DNA of 64,000 nt from Jiangella muralis (lineage in GTDB: Bacteria > Actinomycetota > Actinomycetes > Jiangellales > Jiangellaceae): positions 455,539 to 519,538 of the forward strand of contig NZ_KQ434751.1 in assembly GCF_001270745.1 (NCBI RefSeq). Reading direction: 5' to 3'. How positions within the stretch are numbered: position 1 is the first letter of the stretch; each line of letters starts with the position of its first letter. Below the pieces are notes generated by a model, which saw only the letters and a program-made list of their open reading frames with translations, was not told the DNA's origin and searched no databases. Positions 22,249-24,200 of the stretch are shown here, piece after piece. The translations under genes and the position numbers were made by a program.

Positions 22249-23919
22249 TCAGGTGCGAGCGAGGTGAGTGTGCACGAAGCGGATCGCCATCGCGCCGTCG
22301 CCGACGGCTGCGGCGATCCTCTTCACCGACCCGCTGCGGACGTCGCCGGCTGCGAACACGCCGGGCAGGCTGGTCTCCAGCGGCAGCGGCGCCCGGTTGA
22401 CGTAGCGCCATGCGTCGCCGTCGCGGTTCACTGCTCGTTCGCCGACCCTGACGTACCCGTCGTCGTCGCGGTCGACGGCCTCGGCCAGCCAGGTGGTGCA
22501 AGGCTCGGCCCCGATGAACACGAACATCGAGGTCGCCTTCACAACTCGCCGCTCTCGCGTTTCGCGGTCGCGGACGACGACCTCCTCGAGAGTCCGGTCG
22601 CCGATCAGCTCGATCACCTCACAGCCGAGCAGGACATCGATGTTCGTGTCCGCCAGCACCCGCTCCACCAGGTAACGCGACATGCTCTCGTGCAGTGACG
22701 GCTCCCGGACCACCAGGTGCACCTCCGGGACCACCCGGGCGAGGAACGTCGCGGCCTGGCCGGCGGAGTTGCCGCCGCCTACCACGATCACCGGCTCGCC
22801 GGCGCACCTGGCCGCCTCGAGCGGCGTGGCCGCATAGTGCACACAGATCGGCTCGAACTCATCGACACGGGGCACGGGCAGCCGTCGGTACTGGACGCCG
22901 CTCGCTACGACCACCGCGCGCGCGACGACCGCTGTCCCGTCGTCGAGTCGGACGACGTAGCAGCCGCCGCGCCGCTCCAGCGCGATCGCACTGGCGGACA
23001 CGCTGATCCGGGCACCGAACCTGTCCGCCTGCAGGCGCGCGCGCTCGGCCAGTTCTGCACCGGAGATGCCCGCCGGGAAGCCCACATAGTTTTCGATGTA
23101 CGACGACGTCCCCGCTTGGCCACCGGTGGCGGAACTCTCGACGACGTGGGTGTCCAGACCTTCCGACGCCGCATAGACGGCGGCGGCCAGGCCGGCCGGT
23201 CCGGCACCGACGATGACCACGTCAGTCGTCATGGTCGACGGGCCGGTCTGACGCAGTCCGATGAGCTCGGCAACCTCCTTGTCGGCTGGCCGGCGCAGCA
23301 ACGTCTGGCCGCGCCAGATCACGACCGGCGTCTCCTGGGGCGGCACGCCCCGCTCACGCAGCAATGCCTCGGCATCGATGTCTTCCTCGAGGTCGACGAA
23401 CCGATGTGGCACGCGGTTGCGACAGACGAATTCCAGCAGCCGCATCGTCTCCCTCGAGTATCGCGACCCGATAATCCACAGCACGCTCGCCAGCTCACCG
23501 GGTAGTGAACGCCGCAGCAGGTATGCCCGTAGGACGAGGTCGCCGAAGACGGGATCGGCGGCAACCGCATCACGCAGCCGGCCCCGCGACAGCGCCAGCA
23601 ATTCGCCGTCCTCGACGGCGACCGCCGTGAAGAACGCCACTTGGCCCGCCAGCAGGCTCAGCTCGCCGAGGAACCGGCCGGGGCCGTGCACCCTGACGAT
23701 GCGCCGCTCGTCGTCGTCGCCATCGAGCACCGCGACCCGGCCACGAACGATGACCAACAAGTCGTTGCCGGGTTGCCCCTCGCGGAACAGCACATCGCCG
23801 GTTGTCATCGCCCGCCGCTCGCCGATGCTGGACAGCCGCCGCAACTGCTCCTCTGTGAGCCGCGGGAACGCGCCGTAGAGGTCCGGGGTTTCCGGGTAGG
23901 TGCCCACCGCAACGCCCAC
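22249..23919 (-). CDS. Cyclic nucleotide-binding / Grx-like / thioredoxin reductase-like fusion
   Basis: A 556-residue protein in three parts. Residues about 20-140 are a cNMP-binding domain (DVLFREGQPGNDLLVIVRGR and GRFLGELSLLAGQ). Residues about 165-235 look like a glutaredoxin/thioredoxin fold (PHRFVDLEEDIDAEALLRER, ETPVVIWRGQTLLRRP) but the usual CPYC place reads SRYS. From about 245 a thioredoxin reductase-like flavoprotein follows: DVVIVGAGPAGLAAAVYAAS for FAD, VIVVGGGNSAGQAATFLA for NAD(P)H, and GVFAAGDVRSGSVKRIAAAV. The TrxR CxxC is absent (CVHYAATPLEAARC in its place), so direct thioredoxin reduction is doubtful. GTG 23919 with GGAG six bases before is the likely start. It is downstream of the UBP gene in the chaperone run. 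Confidence 0.85.
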   Translation of the reverse strand: MGVAVGTYPETPDLYGAFPRLTEEQLRRLSSIGERRAMTTGDVLFREGQPGNDLLVIVRGRVAVLDGDDDERRIVRVHGPGRFLGELSLLAGQVAFFTAVAVEDGELLALSRGRLRDAVAADPVFGDLVLRAYLLRRSLPGELASVLWIIGSRYSRETMRLLEFVCRNRVPHRFVDLEEDIDAEALLRERGVPPQETPVVIWRGQTLLRRPADKEVAELIGLRQTGPSTMTTDVVIVGAGPAGLAAAVYAASEGLDTHVVESSATGGQAGTSSYIENYVGFPAGISGAELAERARLQADRFGARISVSASAIALERRGGCYVVRLDDGTAVVARAVVVASGVQYRRLPVPRVDEFEPICVHYAATPLEAARCAGEPVIVVGGGNSAGQAATFLARVVPEVHLVVREPSLHESMSRYLVERVLADTNIDVLLGCEVIELIGDRTLEEVVVRDRETRERRVVKATSMFVFIGAEPCTTWLAEAVDRDDDGYVRVGERAVNRDGDAWRYVNRAPLPLETSLPGVFAAGDVRSGSVKRIAAAVGDGAMAIRFVHTHLART

Positions 23920-23936
23920 CGTGATCTCCAGCCCGC

Positions 23937-24200
23937 TCAGACGAACGCCTCGTGGGCGAAGCACCAGCGCCAGTTCTCCCCGGGCTCCAGCGACCGCACG
24001 ATCGGATGCCCGCTCTGCTGGGCGTGCTTGCGGGCGTGCTTGTTCGGCGACGTATCGCAGCAGCCGACCTTGCCGCACGTGAGGCAGAGCCGCAGGTGCA
24101 CCCAGGCCGAACCGGTGCGTAGGCAGTCCTCGCACCCCTTCGTACGCGGCAGTACCGGCCGGATGAACGCCAGATGCGGGTCATACGGGAGCGTGTTCAT
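23937..24200 (-). CDS. UBP-type zinc finger protein
   Basis: An 87-residue protein that is almost entirely a UBP zinc finger: [20 protein letters not shown] (Cys 23 and 26), [20 protein letters not shown] (further Cys and His ligands), then [20 protein letters not shown]. In eukaryotes the fold binds the C-terminal Gly-Gly of ubiquitin; in bacteria the partner is unknown, but these genes occur next to cNMP/thioredoxin reductase-like fusions, as here. ATG 24200 overlaps the end of clpB by 20 bases, so translation is coupled. Possible roles are recognition of free C-termini or zinc/redox sensing, both unproven. Confidence 0.85.

Follow-up and report, generated by a model that had tools for sequence, protein, structure and literature searches.

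We studied a 64,000-nucleotide stretch of the Jiangella muralis genome (contig NZ_KQ434751.1, positions 455,539 to 519,538 of the forward strand), here called the window, in which a gene for a UBP-type zinc finger protein and a gene for a dithiol-less flavoprotein of the thioredoxin reductase (TrxR) type lie next to clpB. The genes follow each other on the minus strand in the order hsp20, dnaK, grpE, dnaJ, a MerR/CbpM-like gene, clpB, UBP finger and flavoprotein (Table 1). The start codon of the UBP gene falls within the final 20 bases of clpB, and 17 bp separate its stop codon from the GTG start of the flavoprotein. The location of the finger, after clpB and just before the flavoprotein, had been reported in a first-pass annotation of this sequence and was confirmed by its coordinates and by an above-cut-off match to the Pfam family PF02148. 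An open reading frame of 628 aa starting at 24135 was rejected as the flavoprotein frame, since this frame and the UBP gene overlap; translation more likely begins at the GTG at 23919.

The flavoprotein is a fusion of CAP-like, glutaredoxin (Grx)-like and TrxR-like domains, as the first-pass annotation had proposed. Pfam matches were obtained with cNMP_binding (cNMP, cyclic nucleotide; 6e-19) and Pyr_redox_2 (1.7e-34), and the middle domain, folded alone with AlphaFold2 (pLDDT 83.5), is predicted to have a glutaredoxin/thioredoxin fold: Foldseek returned BC3987, an A. fulgidus glutaredoxin and Mrx1 with prob 1.00 and a best E of 7e-4, the single match below E 0.001. The AlphaFold2 model of the full protein had a pLDDT of 82. 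In the VIA comparison, which covers residues 226-556 only and says nothing about the CAP domain, the model matched 5mh4, a TrxR in the FR conformation, with Z 33.5 and a root-mean-square deviation (rmsd) of 2.1 over 299 residues; the rmsd was 6.8 for 5mjk, the same L. lactis protein in another conformation, so that the model is FR-like. The FAD and NAD motifs GxGxxG and GGGNS are conserved in the flavoproteins. The score against the thioredoxin-disulfide reductase model TIGR01292 was 217.2 bits, below its curated cut-off of 343.45. A paralogue in the same genome (L012:5989-7662, C7) joins a receiver (REC) domain to Grx-like and TrxR-like domains, also without either dithiol, and matches that score like it were present in 7 of the 7 congeners of the class sample (see below).

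Both electron-relay dithiols are missing from the whole operon-type group, represented by an alignment of 62 flavoproteins (those of 61 loci described below and that of the window). At the TrxR site none had CxxC (0/62); the window protein reads AATP at the CATC position, in agreement with the first-pass annotation. At the Grx site neither position held a Cys in any protein, the first being Ser in 61 and Asp in one, the second Thr in 59 and Ser in three. The earlier identification of SRYS as the altered Grx site was right as to the absence of Cys, but alignment with intact fusions placed the site at YSRET, three residues away. A CSVC in the L114 protein, around residue 329, is unrelated. Intact relatives do exist: five two-domain Grx-TrxR fusions keep both dithiols, four of them (L151, L152, L154 and L155, with WC(P/G)DC and CATCDG) from genomes of one family in the phylum sample (see below) and the fifth (L255) with CSDC and CATC. 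These fusions, whose sites can be summarized as WC(P/G/S)DC and CATC, have the same domain order as the window protein and align with it without gaps through both active-site loops, WCPDC corresponding to YSRET (Y154-S155-R156-E157-T158) and HFCATC to HYAATP; unlike the window protein, L151, L152, L154 and L155 have no N-terminal regulatory domain. The consensus of the dithiol-less proteins at the Grx site is YSPDT. Wherever both sites were checked, the dithiols were either both present or both absent.

A tree of 60 rows (23 of the 62 operon-type proteins, other relatives and the TrxR of J. muralis itself; L255 was not included) had a branch with 100/100 support that parts the seven rows with CxxC from the 53 without it. 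Rows of the cNMP type formed a group with 99/96 support, outside which the REC-type rows fell; the cNMP label of L164 was assigned by hand, and the label bare of L130 follows from its frame start. From this branching, the change affected both sites jointly and predates the divergence of the N-terminal domains. We infer that the change was a loss of the dithiols rather than a gain, the tree being unrooted. Since the residues defining the named activity are absent, the designation of the dithiol-less proteins at NCBI as thioredoxin-disulfide reductases is probably incorrect.

Table 1 Position of the UBP finger, the flavoprotein with its domains and sites, and the adjoining heat-shock genes in the window
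Feature	Position	Strand	Basis or remark
UBP-type zinc finger protein, 87 aa	23937..24200	-	PF02148 E=1.6e-15
Dithiol-less flavoprotein, 556 aa	22249..23919	-	GTG start behind GGAG
CAP-like (cNMP_binding) domain, residues 1-135, without phosphate-cassette Arg (GELSLLAGQVAFFTA)	23515..23919	-	
Glutaredoxin-like domain, residues 147-222 (predicted)	23254..23481	-	AlphaFold2 + Foldseek
Grx site S155-R-E-T158 (intact relatives: C-P-D-C)	23446..23457	-	
TrxR-like FAD/NAD(P)H domain, residues 231-556	22252..23229	-	
TrxR site A363-A-T-P366 (intact relatives: C-A-T-C)	22822..22833	-	
clpB, second copy of the genome	24181..26870	-	5' end approximate
MerR/CbpM-like regulator between dnaJ and clpB	26862..27254	-	Position, cf. 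Rhodococcus plasmid
dnaJ-like	27258..28205	-	Sequence
grpE	28195..28779	-	Sequence and position
dnaK	28789..30666	-	Sequence
Hsp20	31050..31505	-	Sequence

The neighbourhood of the two genes was inspected, with flanks of up to 6 kb, at the loci of the best 80 of 567 UBP relatives in other genomes, a set that therefore favours the window's type. The flavoprotein was inside the flanks at 61 of these 80 loci, which exceeds chance; 55 of the 61 also had clpB, and the flavoprotein was directly downstream of UBP at 58. A thioredoxin gene (Pfam Thioredoxin, mostly WCGPC and Trx2-like) stood just before UBP at 51, in 49 cases with the flavoprotein directly downstream, and the order clpB-thioredoxin-UBP-flavoprotein was found at 47.

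The association was also seen in two genome samples. Among the 119 genomes of the phylum sample, all from the phylum of the window (flavoprotein threshold E < 1e-70), UBP was present in 27, the flavoprotein in 24 and both in 20 (p=3e-13, kinship ignored), i.e., UBP occurred in 20/24 flavoprotein-positive and 7/95 other genomes. CxxC was found in none of the 24 loci examined there, one per strong genome, the weak hit in G052 being left out, and the genomes carrying the four intact fusions had no UBP match. Among the 148 genomes of the class sample, taken from the window's class and partly shared with the phylum sample, the corresponding numbers were 89, 71 and 68 (p=4e-19, kinship ignored), with UBP in 68/71 flavoprotein-positive against 21/77 other genomes. 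Of the 105 flavoprotein matches in this sample 88 were checked, so that each of the 71 genomes was covered by one or more: the TrxR CxxC was absent in 87, every genome having such a match, and the Grx site was free of CxxC wherever covered except in L255, eight matches having no coverage there. A dithiol-less flavoprotein lay at most 3.2 kb from UBP in 26 of the 68 genomes with both, where about 0.2 would be expected by a rough estimate. The UBP match of G205 and the Pup match of G039 (see below) were counted though below the curated cut-off.

The finger belongs to the same family as 2IDA (phmmer E=1.7e-29), which we take to be the solved bacterial UBP finger from R. palustris, and the HDAC6 ZnF-UBP domain (E=3.8e-9). 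The zinc-ligand pattern C23, C26, C39, C42, C47, H55, H59 and H65 was conserved, each residue in 80 or 81 of 81 fingers, and one zinc site differs, as D7 occupies the position of an HDAC6 Cys in 80/81. We also asked whether columns 7 and 83 might have exchanged their zinc ligands; with His in 51 and Asp in 30 at column 83 there is no strict swap, and the idea was discarded. The window finger retains the aromatic pocket W33, W79 and F81, and among the 81 operon-type fingers W33, W77 and W79 are each missing from one at most. In contrast to 2IDA and the HDAC6 ZnF-UBP domain, neither the window finger nor its relatives have the tail-gripping Arg (presumably R1155 of HDAC6, which holds the C-terminal carboxylate of ubiquitin): its position, T50 in the window, held Arg in 0 of 123 fingers (S100 D6 N4 Q4 T4 E2 A2 H1), and R37, their own, was invariant in 123/123 from all contexts. 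The suggestion of the first-pass annotation that the finger reads a C-terminal Gly-Gly is thus unsupported. It is very improbable that Pup or another ubiquitin-like protein is recognized at its C-terminus by the finger and so linked to ClpB, even though Pup was matched in the J. muralis genome and, in the phylum sample, in 23/27 UBP-positive against 36/92 UBP-negative genomes (p=2e-5, kinship ignored). The flavoprotein shows the same trend (22/24 vs 37/95), which may follow taxonomy; four of the 27 UBP-positive genomes had no Pup match, and the finger occurs in Rhizobium, Burkholderia, Nostoc and Hymenobacter, which to our knowledge lack Pup. Binding of peptides by a UBP finger in the absence of ubiquitin has a precedent, since the human USP20 and USP33 fingers are described as binding internal peptides, not the ubiquitin tail, in the same pocket (PMC13376213). 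By analogy with Ruc, as described in PMC7448276, we also considered that the UBP finger might be a redox-switched zinc chaperone.

The N-terminal domain of the flavoprotein had been taken for a cyclic nucleotide sensor. The phosphate-cassette Arg (columns 92-99) was absent in 61/62 operon-type proteins, the exception being L111 with Arg at the column of Gln93, and in the kinase-linked cNMP domain of L042, examined as a positive control, the phosphate Arg is kept. Control of the flavoprotein by cAMP or cGMP is therefore unsupported.

The pair is part of an accessory, second heat-shock set with its own clpB. The other ClpB copy, 59-61% identical to that of the window, was found in 12/12 genomes of the genus sample, in which the window's clpB was limited to J. 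muralis (0/11 congeners), as was a flavoprotein of the cNMP type (E < 1e-110). The GC content drops from ~0.74 to 0.67-0.72 across roughly 12-42 kb of the window, around this set, and the stretch 12000-42000 is likely an accessory island; no tRNA gene was found in a search of the window from 15 to 45 kb. On the Rhodococcus plasmid pYLL1 (L157) the order dnaK-grpE-dnaJ-cbpM-clpB-trx-UBP-flavoprotein, followed by a DUF1931 gene, is that of the window plus the thioredoxin. Proteins annotated at NCBI as cyclic nucleotide-binding domain-containing thioredoxin-disulfide reductase and UBP-type zinc finger domain-containing protein are annotated relatives of the pair and are adjacent on plasmids of Rhodococcus and Streptomyces. 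In S. coelicolor, clpB is described as being transcribed in an operon with SCO3660, which belongs to the HspR regulon, and HspR control is shown there for clpB (PMC2687793); this speaks for a link to stress, and SCO3660 may be one of the pair's genes.

The pair was found in three operon forms and in three phyla. In addition to the form next to clpB, Tsukamurella and S. fungicidicus have a REC-type flavoprotein together with a histidine kinase bearing a cNMP-like domain and UBP, and in Paraburkholderia and Burkholderia a bare Grx-TrxR type adjoins UBP. A cNMP-type flavoprotein accompanies UBP in Rhizobium and, as judged by eye, in Agrobacterium; the pair in Gemmatirosa was recognized by coordinates. 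UBP is also fused to other proteins, namely to the kinase with a cNMP domain in L042 and to Na+/H+ exchangers: in the J. muralis genome itself (L003:247-1728, C1:273716) an exchanger of family PF00999 bears a C-terminal UBP finger, and similar fusions occur in L020 (by Pfam) and L038 (by likeness). The core of the first-pass annotation, a conserved pair of UBP finger and dithiol-less TrxR relative beside clpB, is therefore right and broader than stated; the proposed link to the disaggregase holds in that the pair is often tied to clpB, but clpB is one context among several, together with the REC-flavoprotein/kinase operons and the antiporter fusions. Neither finding that would have spoken against the first-pass annotation was made: CxxC stood at the TrxR site in none of the 62 operon-type proteins, and the two genes are frequently found in the same genomes, although genome G239 (see below) is a partial counter-example. 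Twelve annotated plasmid regions were also compared, 11 selected for a UBP hit and one, from Microvirga, for the flavoprotein. The flavoprotein was near UBP in 7 of the 11 and not in the other four, and the Microvirga region had the flavoprotein and no UBP. In a Paraburkholderia plasmid (L162) a Grx-TrxR-like gene and UBP lie beside genes for a Clp ATPase, Hsp20, HdeD and PsiE. Transmissible heat-resistance loci are described as containing small heat-shock proteins, ClpK, proteases and a Na+/H+ antiporter (PMC4563881), and the likeness of the L162 region to them is a possible lead. In L159 (5417-6502) a gene for S-(hydroxymethyl)mycothiol dehydrogenase directly follows the REC-flavoprotein/kinase/UBP triad, a hint of electrophile stress.

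Several known systems resemble the flavoprotein in part. It shares with low-Mr TrxB the FAD/NAD(P)H two-Rossmann fold, and differs in having no CXXC, in the replacement of HRRXXXR and in the added Grx-like and CAP-like domains. It has, like the bacillithiol disulfide reductase YpdA/Bdr and the TrxR-like FNRs, a TrxR fold without CXXC; YpdA/Bdr is active in that form, and Bdr and these FNRs are single-domain proteins. By scores alone the window protein is closer to the TrxR model (217 bits) than to that of YpdA (59 bits). The top Foldseek matches of its model were AhpF, which is described as having, like the window protein, an extra N-terminal part and a TrxR-like domain and, as differences, two Cys in each part and AhpC as the protein that it feeds (PMC8945050).

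In the reading that we favour and to which we give not quite an even chance, the pair would consist of an NAD(P)H-flavin enzyme linked to stress, serving as a reductase or as a redox switch, and of UBP as its protein-binding partner. The flavoprotein, which retains the FAD and NAD(P)H folds, would share an ancestor with working two-domain glutaredoxin-thioredoxin reductases, and NAD(P)H would reduce the FAD. With no CxxC to take the electrons, these would leave the flavin directly for an acceptor at the open face, which could be another protein, a small molecule or oxygen; alternatively, the redox state of the flavin might itself be the signal. The dead glutaredoxin domain may have become a docking surface, and the domain rotation may be gated by the N-terminal part, which is CAP-like in the window protein and a REC domain in the sister group. 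The small UBP zinc finger would bind a protein and bring a client or effector to the flavoprotein. Closing the accessory set of hsp20 and dnaK-grpE-dnaJ-clpB, the pair would come into play upon damage to proteins by heat or oxidants. That a TrxR fold can work without CXXC follows from the TrxR-like FNRs, described as active despite its absence (PMC8564101).

A number of observations weigh against this reading. The window lacks the operon thioredoxin, to which the matches in its genome are 36-43% identical, and the module may therefore be incomplete there. The NADPH 2'-phosphate motif HRRXXXR, as defined in PMC8564101, is replaced in the window protein (VVRE...MSRYL), so that the cofactor may differ or not bind. 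No HspR operator with up to three mismatches was found near the locus, though the operator of this host may differ, and HspR control in the window was tentatively set aside. Among the best 80 of 567 loci, 19 had no full flavoprotein nearby: clpB and UBP occur without it in L088, L104 and L122, and L099 holds a short CAP-TrxR piece. Likewise, 21 of the 89 UBP-positive genomes of the class sample had no flavoprotein match. In genome G239 (L258:3166-6131) a UBP finger and the intact fusion L255 are ~1.5 kb apart, separated by other reading frames, and a dithiol-less copy is also present; because of this genome, the dithiol-less form is the main but not the sole companion of UBP. The flavoprotein-free genomes, G239 and the antiporter fusions indicate that UBP has other jobs or partners. 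In the Frankia locus L092 (6268-7089), also among the 19 without a full flavoprotein, a 273-aa protein with CAP and Grx-like domains and no TrxR part stands beside UBP, either a truncation or a short form.

Other explanations account for part of the same evidence. The flavoprotein might be a pure sensor of NAD(P)H/flavin redox state that does not turn over, with UBP as an adaptor to a kinase, an antiporter or the chaperone set. The fusions of UBP to a cNMP-domain kinase and to Na+/H+ exchangers, the adjacency of REC-type flavoproteins to such kinases and the disappearance of both relay dithiols all favour such signalling, which we regard as possible and no stronger than tentative: the clpB-type operon has no kinase, and the highly conserved FAD and NAD(P)H motifs fit turnover equally well. 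With the same reserve, one may picture a redox-signalling module in which a receiver, or a CAP domain free of ligand, gates an NAD(P)H-flavin switch whose state is read by UBP fingers that plug into kinases, ion antiporters and the heat-shock disaggregase set. In that case a reductase would have become a regulator by losing both dithiols at once, and the UBP fold would have a bacterial use independent of ubiquitin.

The thioredoxin gene just before UBP at 51 of the 80 loci, and a single Cys, C372, conserved in 62/62 operon-type proteins, could point to an unusual reductase of the operon thioredoxin acting through C372 or by direct flavin contact. This is unlikely, since the proteins lack the CXXC by which TrxR is described as reducing thioredoxin (PMC8564101), several REC-type and bare relatives, L144 and L162 for example, have no counterpart of C372, and the window has no thioredoxin gene in the operon. 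That the flavoprotein is no longer functional, a Grx-TrxR relative in decay that is kept by hitch-hiking, would agree with the disappearance of three signature motifs and with the shortened copies in L092 and L099. We consider it highly improbable, as long open frames 47-56% identical to the window protein persist with 80 invariant columns in 53 sequences, and the dithiol-less proteins have conserved motifs of their own (YSPDT, YAAT..EA..C and MSRYL).

The dithiol-less flavoprotein is common in the class to which the window belongs and occurs also in Pseudomonadota and Gemmatirosa, its relatives being annotated as thioredoxin-disulfide reductases despite the absence of both relays, and its frequent companion is a bacterial form of a domain known for reading the ubiquitin tail. 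The intact relatives, with the same domain order and both dithiols, offer a ready experimental control. If the proposed working is true, the module connects protein quality control and ion transport with the state of NAD(P)H, and it tells what the UBP fold is used for where ubiquitin plays no part. In the parts of the open-access literature available to the search, no paper was found describing the UBP/dithiol-less flavoprotein pair, with the proviso that SCO3660 in PMC2687793 may be one of the genes; a redox-signalling module of this composition might, quite tentatively, be undescribed in bacteria.

Beyond the dnaK-clpB run, the window contains another Hsp20-like gene at 36639-37076.

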